Source: Erysipelothrix sp.
GTDB taxonomy: Bacteria; Bacillota_I; Bacilli_A; Erysipelotrichales; Erysipelotrichaceae
Assembly: GCA_012841625.1 (NCBI GenBank)
Contig: DUUI01000055.1
Span: 1-56,145 of the forward strand
Direction: 5' to 3'
DNA length: 56,145 bases
Shown here: positions 5,150 to 54,979 of the stretch, one piece after another
Position numbering within the stretch: position 1 is the first letter of the stretch
Layout of the letters: each line of letters starts with the position of its first letter
Program-made: the position numbers and the translations under genes
Notes under the pieces: model-generated
The model's input: only the letters and a program-made list of their open reading frames with translations
Databases searched by the model: none
What the model was told of the DNA's origin: nothing

Positions 5150-5180
5150 GAAAAGAAGATGATTATTCATCATCCTCTTC
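5150..5180 (-). terminator. Possible terminator of the first CNNM gene
   Basis: The last codons of the gene form an imperfect GA-rich/TC-rich hairpin (with G-U pairs) followed by TTCTTTTC on the minus strand. Weak. Confidence 0.4.
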
Positions 5181-6485
5181 TTGTGGTAATCTCTCTAATT
5201 TGACACGACTTATCACTTTGTCATCAATAGCAATAATCGTATACTCATAATTATTGAACCTAATCACCCTATGTAAATCTGATTTCTGTGGAAGTCGACC
5301 TAATTGGCCAACAATAAATCCACTCAATGTATCAAAATCATCAAGCGGTAAATCATCAAAGATAGTATTCTCAACATTATCAAGTGAAACATCACCATTA
5401 ACTAAATATGTGAAATCCTCCAACTTAACAAACTCATCATGTTCATCATCATCATACTCATCAAAGATGTTCCCAACAATTTCCTCAATTAAGTCTTCAA
5501 TCGTTACTAAACCAGCAGTTCCACCATATTCATCAATGACAATCGCAATATGCATTTTATCACGCTGCATATCAAAGAATAATTCATCACACTCAATTGA
5601 ATCAGGCACAAAATACGGCTTTCTTAAAATCGCCAACAAATTCTCACGAGTTAAATCATTCTTATAGTCAAGTTTTAAAATGTCCTTCAAATGTAAGACA
5701 CCCGTGATGTTGTCAATTGAATCCTCATAAATAGGCAAACGAGTAAAACGCTCATTAAAAATAAGCTCCTTAACCTCTTCAATATCCGCCGTAATATCAA
5801 CCGCCACCATATCTGTACGATGGGTCATGACATCAGCAACCGGGGTATTATCAAATTCAAAGATATTCTCAATGAACCGCTTCTCAGTATCCATGATCGC
5901 ACCACGCTCTTGAGAAGCATCAATCATCATTCTAATTTCTTCCTCTGTCACTAAGTCATTTGTCTCATTAGGATCCATACCCAACAATCTAACAACAAAG
6001 TTAGTCGACACAGATAAGAACACAACAATTGGCTTGGTCATAATAGAAATAATGTTAACCAGTCCTACTAAAGCATAACTCACCTTCTCAGGATTGTTCA
6101 TTCCAACTCTCTTAGGCACTAATTCACCAAGCACCAATGTAAAATAAGACAAGATTAAAGTAACAATAACCATCGCTACTGGCTTAATCGTTGTCACACT
6201 AAGTGTCGGTATGATGGACGTCATCCAATCTGCGATGACATCAGAAAAAGCATCACTCGCAAAGGCACTCGATAAGAAACCGGCTAAAGTAATCGCAATC
6301 TGAATCGTAGATAAGAATCTGTTAGAATCTTCTAAGAGATTATATAAGGTCTGAGATTTTTTATCCCCCTCCTCAGCTTTAGCTTTTACTTTGTTGTCAT
6401 TAAGTGAAACAAACGCTATCTCACTCATCGCAAAAATCCCATTAATCAATGTTAGAATTAAGATGATGATAATTTGTCCTAACAT
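5163..6485 (-). CDS. CNNM/CBS membrane protein (HlyC/CorC family)
   Basis: A 440-residue member of the CNNM/CorC family, linked in other bacteria to Mg2+ (or Co2+) efflux. Order of parts: CNNM transmembrane domain about 1-180 (hydrophobic start, PKRVGMNNPEKV element), two CBS repeats about 205-325 (VADVMTHRTDM..., DEYGGTAGLVTIEDLIEEI), and a C-terminal CorC_HlyC domain about 345-425. The ATG overlaps the stop codon of a 20-codon leader ORF (ATGTTAG at 6485-6479). Its own GAGG lies 9 nt upstream. A paralogue is divergently transcribed from the same intergenic region. Confidence 0.92.
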   Translation of the reverse strand: MLGQIIIILILTLINGIFAMSEIAFVSLNDNKVKAKAEEGDKKSQTLYNLLEDSNRFLSTIQIAITLAGFLSSAFASDAFSDVIADWMTSIIPTLSVTTIKPVAMVIVTLILSYFTLVLGELVPKRVGMNNPEKVSYALVGLVNIISIMTKPIVVFLSVSTNFVVRLLGMDPNETNDLVTEEEIRMMIDASQERGAIMDTEKRFIENIFEFDNTPVADVMTHRTDMVAVDITADIEEVKELIFNERFTRLPIYEDSIDNITGVLHLKDILKLDYKNDLTRENLLAILRKPYFVPDSIECDELFFDMQRDKMHIAIVIDEYGGTAGLVTIEDLIEEIVGNIFDEYDDDEHDEFVKLEDFTYLVNGDVSLDNVENTIFDDLPLDDFDTLSGFIVGQLGRLPQKSDLHRVIRFNNYEYTIIAIDDKVISRVKLERLPQEEDDE

Positions 6486-6541
6486 AAATCATCACCTCTT
6501 CTATTACACAATCGACTCAAGGGGTCACTAGTTTCAGTCAT
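6479..6541 (-). CDS. 20-codon leader ORF upstream of the CNNM gene
   Basis: ATG at 6541 has a good ribosome site, AAAGGA, 7 nt upstream. The peptide begins MTETSDPLSRL, continues CNRRGDDLC, and its TAG overlaps the CNNM ATG. An extended -10 promoter (6571-6579) would place the mRNA start near 6564, so the leader is the first thing translated. The acidic/proline beginning followed by arginines is reminiscent of MgtL (MEPDPTPLPRRR...), where low Mg2+ destabilises the ribosome. That role is inferred, not shown. It could also be simply a coupling ORF. Confidence 0.6.
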   Translation of the reverse strand: MTETSDPLSRLCNRRGDDLC

Positions 6542-49972: not shown

Positions 49973-50767
49973 TTAGACAAAATCACTAGTTAGTCTTTGT
50001 TGGTATTCTACTGGACTCAAATATCCCAGGGTCGAATGAATACGTTTGTGATTGAACCAATAAATGTATGTTGATAATTCTTGTCTCAATTCGTCGAGAC
50101 TTTCAAATGATCGCCTCCTTACAAACTCTGTTTTAATGATCTTGAATGTTGCCTCTGCAACTGCGTTATCATAAGGAGTTCCTTTCGCACTTAAAGAACG
50201 CGAAATTCCAAATGCTTCAAGCATTTCGTCTATACTGTAATTCTTGAACTCTGAACCCCTATCGGTATGAAAATATTCTATGTTAGATAGATTTCCATCT
50301 ACTTTCGCAAATGCATCCAAAACAAGAGATGGTGTTTTCCTTTCACCACAACTTGATCCAATTATTTCTCTTGCATGAAGGTCTAAAAGTATACAAATAT
50401 AATTCCAATTGCTCCCAACTCTTACATATGTCAAATCACTGACAACAACTTGCAACTTACCTCTGTCATCGAAATCTCGGTTTACGAGATTTTCTATTTT
50501 AGATTCGTTGACTACAGATGAATGGTTCCTATACTTCTTTTTAGTATAAACAGATACCAAATCATGTTTTCTCATTATTCTTGATATCCTACGTCGCGAA
50601 GTAAAGATTCCTTTTCTTTGAAGCTCAGCTTTGATTTTACGACTACCGTATATCGAATGACTTTTATAAAAGAAATCAATAACTTCATCTTCATATTGAT
50701 CGATTTCTTTTATTTTTGGTCTGTATGAATAAATTGCGCTTCTTGAGACATTTAGATATTTGCACAT
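49973..50767 (-). CDS. IS3-family transposase OrfB (DDE integrase)
   Basis: 264 residues from the first ATG. HTH_21-type start (SHSIYGSRKIKAELQ) and an rve integrase core with all three acidic residues: Asp in VVSDLTYV, Asp in FHTDRGSEF and Glu in NAVAEATFK. The frame is open upstream into orfA and is in -1 relation to it, so the active enzyme is probably an OrfAB fusion made by frameshifting. Apparently intact. Confidence 0.93.
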   Translation of the reverse strand: MCKYLNVSRSAIYSYRPKIKEIDQYEDEVIDFFYKSHSIYGSRKIKAELQRKGIFTSRRRISRIMRKHDLVSVYTKKKYRNHSSVVNESKIENLVNRDFDDRGKLQVVVSDLTYVRVGSNWNYICILLDLHAREIIGSSCGERKTPSLVLDAFAKVDGNLSNIEYFHTDRGSEFKNYSIDEMLEAFGISRSLSAKGTPYDNAVAEATFKIIKTEFVRRRSFESLDELRQELSTYIYWFNHKRIHSTLGYLSPVEYQQRLTSDFV

Positions 50768-50808
50768 TGAAGAAATTGGATATTTATGCGAATTTTTACG
50801 AATAATTT

Positions 50809-51093
50809 CTATTTTCGTCCCATAATCAGCGCCGCTTGCTTTAAAATATCATTTTCCATCTTTAACTGTTGGTTCTCTTTTCGGAGTTTGATGAGTTCAT
50901 TTTCATCATCGCTTCGATTATCAGCGGCTTTGAATGATCCTGATGTGGTTTGTTGCTTTACCCATCGATAGACAAGCTGTTCATTCAAATCGTAGTCGCG
51001 GGCTAAGTCACCTGCAGACCTTCCTCCGTGGTACAGTTTCACGATTTGTATTTTAAATTCATCAGTAAATTTCCTACGTGTTCTCTTTGTCAT
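50809..51093 (-). CDS. IS3-family transposase OrfA
   Basis: 94 residues: an N-terminal helix-turn-helix (RRKFTDEFKIQIVKLYHGG, DYDLNEQLVYRWV) and a C-terminal leucine-zipper-like coiled coil (ELIKLRKENQQLKMENDILK). It ends CGA AAA TAG; the AAAA directly before the stop is a plausible site for the -1 shift into orfB. Confidence 0.92.
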   Translation of the reverse strand: MTKRTRRKFTDEFKIQIVKLYHGGRSAGDLARDYDLNEQLVYRWVKQQTTSGSFKAADNRSDDENELIKLRKENQQLKMENDILKQAALIMGRK

Positions 51094-51200: not shown

Positions 51201-51805
51201 GTGATCGTAGGGTCTGTTGTAAGAAAGAATATTTCACTTTTTATGTTTTCTTTTACACTTCTCTCAATTATTGTAGGAGCTGTCATTTCGGTTGTTTTTT
51301 CAACCGTACTAGACTTTGTAAAGAGTTTGATTTCTGCAGACGATAGTCCTTTTTGGGCATTTCTTTATTTCATTATCTCTTTAATTATATTTGTAGATAT
51401 TTTTTGGAGACTTAATATGAAAACTAAAATAAAGAAGAGATAGATAATCAAAAAGCTCTTGATTCTACGATCAAGTATACTGCAACAGGTTTTGTTTTTG
51501 CTATAGCAACTTTTACCGATCCAACATATTATGCAGTTATATTGTTAGGTGCAGAAACAAATAGTTTCCTGTTAGCGACTTTGCTAATTACTATCTGGTT
51601 TTTGACTAGTTAATTTTCTGCTGTTATTGTATATATAGCCAATCAATTTAATCTTCTAGATAGATTAGTCATTTTCATCGATAAGATCAAGAATAAGAAT
51701 ACGAAGGTAATAAAAAATGTCTTTTATTCTTTGTTAATTGTAATTGTTTTATTGTTGATGATTGATTCATGGTACTATCTGTTCTTTAATCGTTACTTAT
51801 TTTAA
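51201..51805 (+). pseudogene. Broken membrane protein gene
   Basis: Two frames together read as one polytopic membrane protein. The first (51201-51443) contains SFTLLSIIVGAVISVVFSTVLD-type segments and ends in a stop. The sequence continues in another frame from about 51425 (EEIDNQKALDSTIKYTATG) and is interrupted by TAA at 51611-51613 before ending at 51805. Thus one frameshift and one nonsense mutation. The layout (lipophilic segments, central charged loop, DPTYY) recalls LysE/GAP-like exporters, but I do not assign it. It adjoins the IS and has no ribosome site. Confidence 0.6.
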
Positions 51806-51886: not shown

Positions 51887-51915
51887 TTGACAGATCTAAG
51901 CCAAAGGATTAACAT
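51887..51915 (+). promoter_or_regulatory. Promoter of the M-box-mgtA unit
   Basis: TTGACA (51887-51892), 17 bp, TAACAT (51910-51915); predicted start about 15 nt before the aptamer. Confidence 0.7.
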
Positions 51916-51929
51916 ATATTTGGTTTTAC

Positions 51930-52095
51930 AATTAAGGTAGGTGAGGCTACCGCTAGAATTACGATTACCACCGTAAAAGGATGGAGACATCCTGCACAGG
52001 TCAACAGTTGTTATCGAAACAAGGTTTCAACTAGTGTAAGTTCATGTCTAGCGAAGCTAAAGCTTGAACGTTAATAAGCGGTTTACAAGGTTATA
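51930..52095 (+). promoter_or_regulatory. M-box (ykoK) magnesium riboswitch aptamer
   Basis: Begins with the M-box signature GTAGGTGAGGCT. The helix CGCTAG (about 51951) pairs with CTAGCG (about 52049). A GGATG-GAGA-CATCC hairpin, the conserved GGTCAACAG and TCGAAACAAGG core, and the closing GCTAAAGCTTGAACG all fit the family. High Mg2+ should favour the terminator at 52106-52161 and switch off mgtA. Confidence 0.88.
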
Positions 52096-52105
52096 AATTT
52101 AAAAC

Positions 52106-52161
52106 ATCTACCTTTTTGCCTTAAATATTGTATTTTAGGCGTATCTTAGGTAGATTTTTTA
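52106..52161 (+). terminator. Riboswitch-controlled terminator
   Basis: Outer stem ATCTACCT (52106-52113) with AGGTAGAT (52148-52155), an inner helix GCCTTAAAT/ATTTTAGGC, then a run of six T. It lies between aptamer and coding region. Confidence 0.85.
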
Positions 52162-52186
52162 TTGTTTGGAAAGGAGTTAGATAGTA

Positions 52187-52267
52187 ATGGAAGATTCCCC
52201 TCATTGTAAGTACATAAACATAAACGCTGTAAGAAAGCATATTCACATAGGTAGATTAACAACTTAA
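52187..52267 (+). CDS. 26-codon leader ORF between riboswitch and mgtA
   Basis: AAGGAG lies 10 nt before the ATG. The peptide starts MEDSPHCKYININ and is basic at the end. The same frame stays open beyond its TAA as ESTSFHEIVGLVCSACDMA... to a TAG at 52336, so it may be the front half of a 48-codon gene broken by one stop. The acidic/proline beginning resembles MgtL-type Mg2+-sensing leader peptides. Both readings are inference; no similarity was searched. Confidence 0.45.
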   Translation: MEDSPHCKYININAVRKHIHIGRLTT

Positions 52268-52351
52268 GAATCAACGTCATTTCATGAAATTGTCGGTCTG
52301 GTTTGCTCTGCCTGTGATATGGCAAAACAGTTCTAGAAAGGAACATGTATC

Positions 52352-54979
52352 ATGAAAAAAAATTACACAACTAACAAGATTACCACAAGAGATAAGTTCA
52401 AGATTTCTGACTACGCTCAATTAGATAACACAGTCATAATTGATCACTTTAAAACACGAACAGAAGGTTTAACGTCAAAAGAGGCAGATAGCAGGTTAGA
52501 AGAATTTGGACTAAACCAAATCTCAATAGGTTTTAGAGATACCGTATGGTCCAGACTATTTGAATCTATTATTAACCCTTTTAGTGTTATTTTAATGGTG
52601 ATTGCAGTGATCACTTTTATTACTGACGTTGTTATTTCCGCTCAAAAAGATTACTTTACTTTTATTATTATTATATTACTTGTTTTTGTCTCTAGTATGA
52701 TTTCATTTATTCAAAGTCAATCTTCGAGCAAGGCAGTGGCTAAGTTAACAAATCAAATAAAGAATACAAGTCACGTGTATCGTGACGGGACATTGATTGA
52801 AATTCCCCAAGACCAAGTTGTACCGGGTGATATTGTTCATCTTGGAGCTGGAGACATGCTACCAGCAGATATCCGTTTTATTCAAACCAAAGATACTTTT
52901 ATTGCGCAATCTGCATTGACTGGAGAATCAACACCGGTTGAAAAATTCTCTCATCAATTAGATGATCAAAACCTGAGCTTAACAGATTTAGATAATATTG
53001 GATTTATGGGTTCAAACATGATCAGCGGGAGTGCCCGAGGAGTTGTAATTGCGACGGGGGATTCTACATATTTTGGATCAATGGCTGGTTCACTAACTGG
53101 AGATCGCGCAAAAAATAGCTTTGAGCGCGGCGTAGATGATATCAGTCGAATGCTCATTCGTATGATGATTATTATGGTTCCTATTGTTTTTGTCATTAAT
53201 ACCCTCAATAAAGATGACTGGGGAACTTCTCTAGTATTTGCTGTTAGTATTGCTGTGGGTTTAACACCTGAGATGTTACCTGTGATTACTAATTCAACGC
53301 TTGCTGTAGGTGCTCAAAACATGGCTAAAGTAAAAGTCATTGTTCGCAATACGAGTGCAATTCAATCTTTTGGTGAGATGGATGTTCTATGTACTGATAA
53401 GACTGGAACACTCACTGAAGACAAAATCATTGTTGAACGGTATATGAATCTACATGGTGATGATGACAAGCGAGTTCTAAGACATGCATATTTAAATTCC
53501 TACTTTCAAACTGGCATGAAAAACTTAATTGATTTTGCTGTGATAAACCGAGCAAAAGATTATAAGTTTGATAGTATTCTAAATAGTTATAAGGTTGTCG
53601 ATGAAATACCCTTTGACTTTAATCGTCGCCGTATGAGTGTTGTACTTGAGGACAAGACTGGTAAGCGTCAACTAATTACTAAAGGAGCAGTAGAAGAGAT
53701 GGTTTCTATTTCTTCCTTCGTTGAATTAGACGGCATAGTACATCCTTTAGATGATGAAAAACTAGCCATTACGAAGGAAACATATGAGACTTATAACCGT
53801 CAAGGTCTAAGAATGATTGCAGTTGCCCAAAAGAATAATATTCCAGACAGTAATCACTTTAGTATCAACGATGAGAGTGACATGGTATTAATCGGGTTTA
53901 TGGGATTCCTAGATCCCCCTAAAAAAAGTGCAACCCCTGCTATCAAAGTATTAGAAGAGCACCAAGTTCGGACTGTTGTATTGACAGGAGATAGTGAGGG
54001 TGTAGCCATTAATGTTTGTAAAGAAGTTGGCATTGATACCAGCATTGTATACACAGGTAGTGATGTAGAAGCTATGACTGATTTTGAACTAGCCATAGCT
54101 GTAGAAGAATGTAGTCTATTTGCTAAACTATCACCACAACAAAAGACACGAGTTATTTCTGCATTCCAAGCTGAGGGTCATACTGTTGGTTTTTTAGGAG
54201 ATGGAATTAATGATGCTCCAGCTTTAAGACAAGCAGATGTGGGAATATCTGTAGATACTGCAGTAGATATCGCCAAAGAAACAGCTGATATAGTACTACT
54301 TGAAAAGGATTTAATGGTCTTAGAGCGTGGAGTATTAGAAGGTCGCAGAACATTTGGAAATATAATGAAGTATATTAAAATGGCTTCCAGTGGTAATTTC
54401 GGAAACATCATTTCAATTATAGTAGCTAGCCTATTCTTACCTTTCTTGCCAATGTTACCAGTACAGCTTTTGACACAAAATCTACTAAATGATTTTGCTC
54501 AAATTGGGATGCCTTTTGACAACATTGATGAAGAATACTTAACAGAACCAAAATCATGGGATACAAAAAGTGTTGGTAATTTCATGCGTTGGTTAGGGCC
54601 TGTAAGTTCAATTTTTGATATTCTCTGTTTCCTAATACTTTGGTTTGTTATCGGGGCGAACACTATGGACAAAGCACCTTTATTCCAAGCTGGTTGGTTT
54701 ATCTTTGGTACTCTGTCACAAATACTCATCATGCATATGATTCGTACGACAAAGACCCCTTTTATTAAAAGTATGTCATCAAAAGAGTTAACTATGTCTA
54801 CATTTATCATCGCAACGATTGCTATCATCATGGTGTTTTCTGATTTAGCAATTGGTCTAGACATGTTACCATTACAAGTCAGTTTTATCCCATGGCTTGT
54901 CTTGCTTTTGATAGGTTATATGCTTGTTGTACAACTTATCAAAAAGTTTTACTTAAAACGATATAAAGAATGGATATAG
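52352..54979 (+). CDS. mgtA: Magnesium-importing P-type ATPase
   Basis: 875 residues, P3B-type. Cation ATPase N-terminal domain (DNTVIIDHFKTRTEGLTSKEA), TGES loop, phosphorylated Asp349 in CTDKTGTLTED, GDGINDAPALRQADVG hinge, and C-terminal segments including NDFAQIGMPFD, characteristic of MgtA/MgtB. It imports Mg2+ when the ion is scarce. Control by the upstream M-box riboswitch supports the substrate. AAAGGAA lies before the ATG. Confidence 0.96.
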   Translation: MKKNYTTNKITTRDKFKISDYAQLDNTVIIDHFKTRTEGLTSKEADSRLEEFGLNQISIGFRDTVWSRLFESIINPFSVILMVIAVITFITDVVISAQKDYFTFIIIILLVFVSSMISFIQSQSSSKAVAKLTNQIKNTSHVYRDGTLIEIPQDQVVPGDIVHLGAGDMLPADIRFIQTKDTFIAQSALTGESTPVEKFSHQLDDQNLSLTDLDNIGFMGSNMISGSARGVVIATGDSTYFGSMAGSLTGDRAKNSFERGVDDISRMLIRMMIIMVPIVFVINTLNKDDWGTSLVFAVSIAVGLTPEMLPVITNSTLAVGAQNMAKVKVIVRNTSAIQSFGEMDVLCTDKTGTLTEDKIIVERYMNLHGDDDKRVLRHAYLNSYFQTGMKNLIDFAVINRAKDYKFDSILNSYKVVDEIPFDFNRRRMSVVLEDKTGKRQLITKGAVEEMVSISSFVELDGIVHPLDDEKLAITKETYETYNRQGLRMIAVAQKNNIPDSNHFSINDESDMVLIGFMGFLDPPKKSATPAIKVLEEHQVRTVVLTGDSEGVAINVCKEVGIDTSIVYTGSDVEAMTDFELAIAVEECSLFAKLSPQQKTRVISAFQAEGHTVGFLGDGINDAPALRQADVGISVDTAVDIAKETADIVLLEKDLMVLERGVLEGRRTFGNIMKYIKMASSGNFGNIISIIVASLFLPFLPMLPVQLLTQNLLNDFAQIGMPFDNIDEEYLTEPKSWDTKSVGNFMRWLGPVSSIFDILCFLILWFVIGANTMDKAPLFQAGWFIFGTLSQILIMHMIRTTKTPFIKSMSSKELTMSTFIIATIAIIMVFSDLAIGLDMLPLQVSFIPWLVLLLIGYMLVVQLIKKFYLKRYKEWI

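Follow-up and report, generated by a model that had tools for sequence, protein, structure and literature searches.

In a contig of Erysipelothrix sp., analysed over its whole 56,145 nucleotides (in the following the window), the Mg2+ pump gene mgtA is preceded by an M-box riboswitch with its intrinsic terminator and, behind both, by a short upstream open reading frame (uORF) with an acidic and proline-containing start. This uORF is probably an MgtL-like, translation-aborting leader that responds to Mg2+ and is stacked behind the M-box; the Mg2+ response and the output step are the parts that we infer.

Leaders of enteric Mg2+ pumps that destabilise ribosomes have already been worked out, Rho being the output in the case of MgtL, and within the open-access literature searched such an acidic leader device is described only in enteric bacteria. 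For mgtA of the Bacillota, this open-access search yielded no description of acidic leader ORFs. If the device recurs across the Bacillota, including genomes without detectable rho and leaders behind an M-box, Mg2+ sensing through ribosome stability would be a general solution, and many known M-box mgtA leaders would hold an overlooked second sensor.

Layout of the mgtA leader and its neighbourhood

In 5' to 3' direction the leader consists of a promoter-like site, the M-box, its terminator, the Shine-Dalgarno (SD) sequence of the uORF, the uORF, and the SD of mgtA, followed by mgtA:

51887-51915, + strand: candidate promoter TTGACA-17-TAACAT, presumed to drive the leader (consensus scan, 10/12)
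51926-52080, + strand: M-box Mg2+ riboswitch aptamer (RF00380, 96.5 bits, gathering score 44)
52106-52161, + strand: intrinsic terminator of the M-box, hairpin and T-tract
52170-52176, + strand: uORF SD AAAGGAG, spacer of 10 nt to the ATG (from the sequence)
52187-52267, + strand: leader ORF (uORF) of 26 codons, MEDSPHCKYININAVRKHIHIGRLTT and stop (ORF, relatives, census, codon analysis)
52187-52210, + strand: first codons, conserved as M-[DE]-D-x-[PS]-x-C-K, putative ribosome-destabilising motif (codon table)
52249-52255, + strand: AGGTAGA within the uORF's 3' part, possible pairing partner of 52307-52313 (helix retained in relatives)
52268-52283, + strand: GAATCAACGTCATTTC, directly 3' of the uORF stop, weak partner of the uORF start (homologous segment pairs in L071 and L073)
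52307-52313, + strand: TCTGCCT, partner of AGGTAGA, alternatively in a local hairpin with a downstream GGC (predicted pairing)
52335-52342, + strand: mgtA SD AGAAAGGA (from the sequence; GAAAGGA conserved 4/4 in the alignment)
52352-54979, + strand: mgtA, Mg2+-importing P-type ATPase (TIGR01524, 1091 bits compared to a cut-off of 610.75)

As in MgtL-type leaders, a short SD-preceded ORF lies between promoter and mgtA. The aptamer exceeds its gathering score and is located upstream of a Mg2+ transporter gene, as expected of an M-box. Its terminator consists of a stem (52106-52113/52148-52155) and a U-tract, the 60-nt fold reaching -17.0 kcal/mol (z -4.84). The uORF starts with the ATG at 52187 and stops with the TAA at 52265-52267, after which 22 further codons stay open (ESTSFHEIVGLVCSACDMAKQF) until the TAG at 52334-52336. 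The coordinates given in the original prediction for the uORF, its stops and the open tail all hold, and the uORF indeed begins past the riboswitch terminator, as claimed there.

Within the window's own family, mgtA genes are at most 63% identical to that of the window. This family is probably the Erysipelotrichaceae, as it includes loci with leaders matching those of named Erysipelotrichaceae MAGs and its class includes TGA-recoding genomes. Since identities of 84% are reached in other groups, the mgtA unit has probably moved between groups, as judged from sequence comparison. Two further elements were noted in the surroundings. A two-ORF transposase of the IS3 type, named from its sequence, adjoins this apparently horizontally acquired unit (49973-51093, - strand), and short broken frames of an apparent membrane protein (51201-51805, + strand) represent a decayed gene directly 5' of the M-box. 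In the sister species (locus L069 of the same-genus genome G001, about 1501-2783) an M-box was found before putative LrgA/CidA and LrgB genes and not before mgtA, which would be an unusual target if confirmed.

Conservation of the leader and selection on its first codons

The closest MgtA relatives were obtained by a tblastn-confirmed scan, and all three belong to other Bacillota groups than the window. These are L071, a Tissierellia MAG, and L073, Candidatus Galacturonibacter, each with an mgtA 84% identical to that of the window, as well as L072, Allofustis, with 74% identity. An M-box at the matching position and its terminator are kept in all of them, and L071 and L073 also keep CTTGACAGA 5' of the M-box. 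Their uORFs, with matching position and SD, start with MDDLPSCK, MDDLPRCK and MDDFSNCK. At about 75% nucleotide identity to the leader of the window, SD, ATG, the [DE]-D start and Cys7-Lys8 are retained, with Ser in place of Pro5 in L072, and GAAAGG of the uORF SD is invariant in the four-way alignment of the window, L071, L072 and L073. A DNA search within the genus yielded no orthologous leader. The original prediction would have been abandoned if related mgtA leaders lacked an ORF at this place; all three closest relatives have it, beside mgtA and with the conserved acidic/Pro start, and the reading as a leader ORF is upheld.

The same alignment bears on another reading raised originally, a gene of about 48 codons newly broken by the TAA at 52265-52267 and carrying a CxxC motif (VCSACDMA) in its open tail. 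The TAA is an old stop, aligned with an in-frame TAA in L071 and L073. The uORF of L073 terminates a few codons earlier at a TGA, the would-be tail of L071 contains an additional stop, and neither has an intact 48-codon version. No conservation of VCSACDMA was seen in the aligned tails of the relatives, and no Pfam or NCBIfam family was matched. The 49-aa readthrough peptide had no homologue among 60 relatives, plasmids and viral contigs; it is too short for such a search, and orthologues were found via mgtA synteny only. The 22 codons open after the TAA speak for a small CxxC protein, a candidate that was rejected because of the stop common to L071 and L073 and that we regard as extremely improbable.

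Upstream regions of mgtA were also surveyed in further Erysipelotrichaceae, other Bacilli, Lachnospiraceae, Lactobacillales and Clostridia. From every region one ORF was taken blind to its sequence, namely that with the best SD between -260 and -70, and reverse complements, dinucleotide shuffles and the starts of ordinary genes served as controls. An SD-preceded uORF was present in 131 of 192 non-redundant Bacillota mgtA upstream regions (68%), compared to 8% for the reverse complement and 24% for shuffles. Residue 2 is acidic in 40 of 79 uORF clusters (51%; shuffles 6%, ordinary genes 12%; binomial p 6e-17 relative to 12%), and three or more D/E/P occur at residues 2-10 in 28 of the 79 (35%; shuffles 6%, ordinary genes 9%; p 1e-10 relative to 9%). 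Among 49 non-Bacillota mgtA upstream regions this enrichment was not seen. Typical starts are MEDSPRRL, MDDSSQMI, MEDSSHGRS, MDESPVYK, MQIDDHPEPH, MPQFLEDDPAEPESS and MAKSGLAEPSEPGS, and some resemble the enteric EPDP (IDDHPEPH, EDDPAEPE, EPTEPGSD). An M-box is located upstream of 101 counted mgtA genes, 59 of which have an acidic/Pro uORF, always 3' of the aptamer. Because the relatives keep SD, ATG, start and Cys7-Lys8 and the class is enriched over the controls, the uORF is considered more than a chance frame.

To estimate selection on the codons, Nei-Gojobori counts were made separately in each of nine groups of related leaders and then pooled at equal group weight. The pooled pN/pS amounts to 0.37 at codons 2-10 compared to 0.91 after codon 10, a contrast that is somewhat overstated, as pooling weights groups and not events and the groups were gathered by a common start motif, which lowers pN there. 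The window's own group of four sequences contributes little and gives weak evidence (0.66 at codons 2-10, 0.82 later). From these counts, codons 2-10 are under purifying selection class-wide and later codons are not, and because of the difference between 0.37 and 0.91 the start of the peptide, and not a whole small protein, appears to matter. Acidic/Pro first codons under selection, as in MgtL-type leaders, are thus indicated by MEDSP, the class enrichment and pN/pS, weakly so in the window's group.

RNA pairing, output step and rival readings

Throughout the class, the initiation region of the uORF shows complementarity to a segment close to the uORF end or just behind it. This start pairing beats 95% of shuffles in 64.5% of 93 leaders and 47% of 53 clusters, compared to 1% of 90 ordinary genes, and a leader's own partner pairs better than swapped partners (p 2e-7); all predicted pairings are thermodynamic only and ignore co-transcriptional order. 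The helices vary in sequence among lineages, as expected if the pairing itself is kept. In the Lactobacillales leaders L208-L235 the uORF start pairs with a conserved stretch (about TATTATTGTCTATTTGTTTC) in the uORF's 3' part. This stretch is translated in three different frames, as IIVYLFL, YYCLFVS and LLLSICF, and its conservation is therefore one of RNA.

The start-pairing duplex of the window does not reach significance (z +0.3). In L071 and L073 the homologous segments pair with the uORF start at z -1.0 and -1.2, neither being significant alone, and the single-sequence minimum free energy of the leader behind the M-box is unremarkable (z -0.85). A helix of AGGTAGA with TCTGCCT, including three compensated pairs (columns 111-127 with 178-191), is retained by L071, L073 and the window, three sequences being few for such a comparison.

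A terminator follows the uORF in 13 of 34 leaders without an M-box compared to 3 of 59 with one (Fisher p 9e-5), and uORFs without an M-box thus often have their own attenuator. In the leader of the window a second intrinsic terminator is absent. No rho gene above the cut-off was found in the window's genome, a draft of 85 contigs and 97% completeness, where only weak matches of about 36 bits occurred that are probably ATP-synthase-like. Rho is present in the genomes of the three closest leaders; none above the family cut-off was found in G000, G009, G068, G152, G256 and G1062, several of which carry mgtA leader uORFs. Rho-dependent termination, the output of MgtL, was dropped for the window because rho was not found in its genome. 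For a model in which the mgtA SD is masked, folding with a mock ribosome over 90 leaders gave no computational support, the accessibility of this SD shifting in no consistent direction. Since the leader of the window has no second intrinsic terminator and no Rho was detected, our favoured guess for the output step in M-box leaders of this kind is the translation of mgtA.

In the proposed mechanism the terminator of the M-box would remain unformed at low Mg2+, so that RNA polymerase continues into the uORF. Ribosomes on the acidic/Pro start (Glu-Asp-Ser-Pro) would be prone to drop off early, and increasingly so as Mg2+ falls. In the wider class, the uORF start freed in this way could pair with the segment near the uORF end or just behind, and a ribosome completing the uORF would hold the two apart. 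The expression of mgtA would then depend on a second reading of Mg2+, given by the state of the ribosome, after the reading of the aptamer. We count the second, translation-based layer of Mg2+ control, as originally suggested, as supported and likely. A more tentative generalisation, which we hold somewhat below even chances, is a Bacillota-wide, Rho-independent nascent-peptide sensor at mgtA and CNNM genes: early drop-off would free the uORF start to pair with the uORF's own end, and behind an M-box, aptamer and ribosome would read Mg2+ in series on one transcript.

In principle, a translated leader ORF could merely keep ribosomes on the leader, for coupling or for protection from decay, without sensing Mg2+ through the nascent chain. 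The low conservation past codon 10 and the lack of a consistent output structure would agree with this, and the M-box alone already senses Mg2+, but the recurrence of Asp/Glu/Pro first codons, with an acidic residue 2 in 51% of the clusters, and the selection on the amino acids of the start would be left unexplained; we consider this reading unlikely. A short peptide acting in trans on MgtA or another membrane protein, like MgtR, MgtS or MgtU, is far less probable still. Small size and linkage to mgtA would suit such a peptide, but the C-terminal halves drift freely (pN/pS 0.91) and one Lactobacillales group reads its 3' nucleotide stretch in three frames.

The leader may also be a relic in this genome, brought in together with mgtA by horizontal acquisition and, for want of Rho and a strong start-pairing helix, no longer regulatory. 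The higher identity of mgtA to other Bacillota groups (84%) than to the own family (at most 63%), the adjoining IS3-type transposase, the weak start helix and the failure to find rho are consistent with a relic. Against this stand the SD, ATG, acidic start and Cys-Lys, intact at about 75% nucleotide identity, and the helix of AGGTAGA and TCTGCCT retained with compensated pairs, which make a relic rather improbable.

Comparison with known systems and the second acidic leader

For enteric MgtL it is reported that low Mg2+ leads to loss of the ribosome on acidic/Pro codons, followed by refolding of the leader and expression of mgtA (PMC11282234, PMC11552253). Similar to MgtL of Salmonella and E. 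coli, the uORF of the window is short and belongs to the leader of a Mg2+ pump gene of the mgtA type, with acidic and Pro residues at its very start and predicted alternative leader structures. In contrast to MgtL, it is preceded by an M-box, which is not described for enteric mgtA; its peptide is longer, the C-terminal half being free; and enteric output is Rho-dependent termination, whereas rho was not found in the window's genome. As far as the sequences indicate, the input side, an acidic/Pro start under selection, fits MgtL and the output side does not, because no Rho was found. With peptides too short and divergent for more, the relation to enteric mgtL is regarded as a functional analogy alone.

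MgtQ, the uORF before Salmonella mgtB, operates by drop-off at the level of translation (PMC8092293). It shares the acidic start. Its overlap with alternative stem-loops has a counterpart that is strong in the Bacillota class and weak in the window (z +0.3), and its action at translation of the pump gene would correspond to the output step favoured here. MgtQ differs in its 8 codons, its location within an operon between mgtC and mgtB and the lack of a riboswitch, and masking of the target-gene SD has been shown there, whereas no consistent masking occurred in the present leaders. In M. tuberculosis an M-box is likewise followed by a conserved uORF, rv1805A before pe20, but there a translational M-box acts on rv1805A itself, to which no role has been assigned (PMC12810186). 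In the window, by comparison, a uORF with an acidic start is situated between the intrinsic terminator of the M-box and mgtA.

A second acidic leader, likewise noted in the original prediction near 6479, is present at a CNNM gene of the window:

6479-6541, - strand: second acidic leader ORF, MTETSDPLSRLCNRRGDDLC and stop, ATG at 6539-6541, overlapping the CNNM start
5163-6485, - strand: CNNM/CorC-type gene behind the second leader (PF01595, 173.6 bits)

Upstream of the CNNM gene, similar acidic-start uORFs recur in several members of the family (L312-L314, L316, L319, L320, L323), with starts MSDGSDLPRR, MSDSSDLSRS, MSDEGSGERR, MSDDGSDERK, MTEDSEGCDR, MTESDSSSAP and MDEDSSGIIP. For E. coli, a ribosome-destabilising (IRD) start of CorC/YbeX and a leader, YoaL, of mgpA are reported (PMC12421838). 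These are CorC-domain genes with a destabilising start or leader, comparable to the CNNM gene of the window, but gammaproteobacterial and of other architecture. Two acidic leaders within 56 kb seem unlikely to be a coincidence, because acidic uORFs recur before the CNNM genes of the family and because of these reports on CorC/YbeX and mgpA. With starts picked by SD only, the more distant CNNM proteins L326, L329, L333 and L335 seem to begin with acidic/Pro residues themselves, as though the gene itself bore the motif (MDDPQ, MDIDPD, MDADP and MDDPL).
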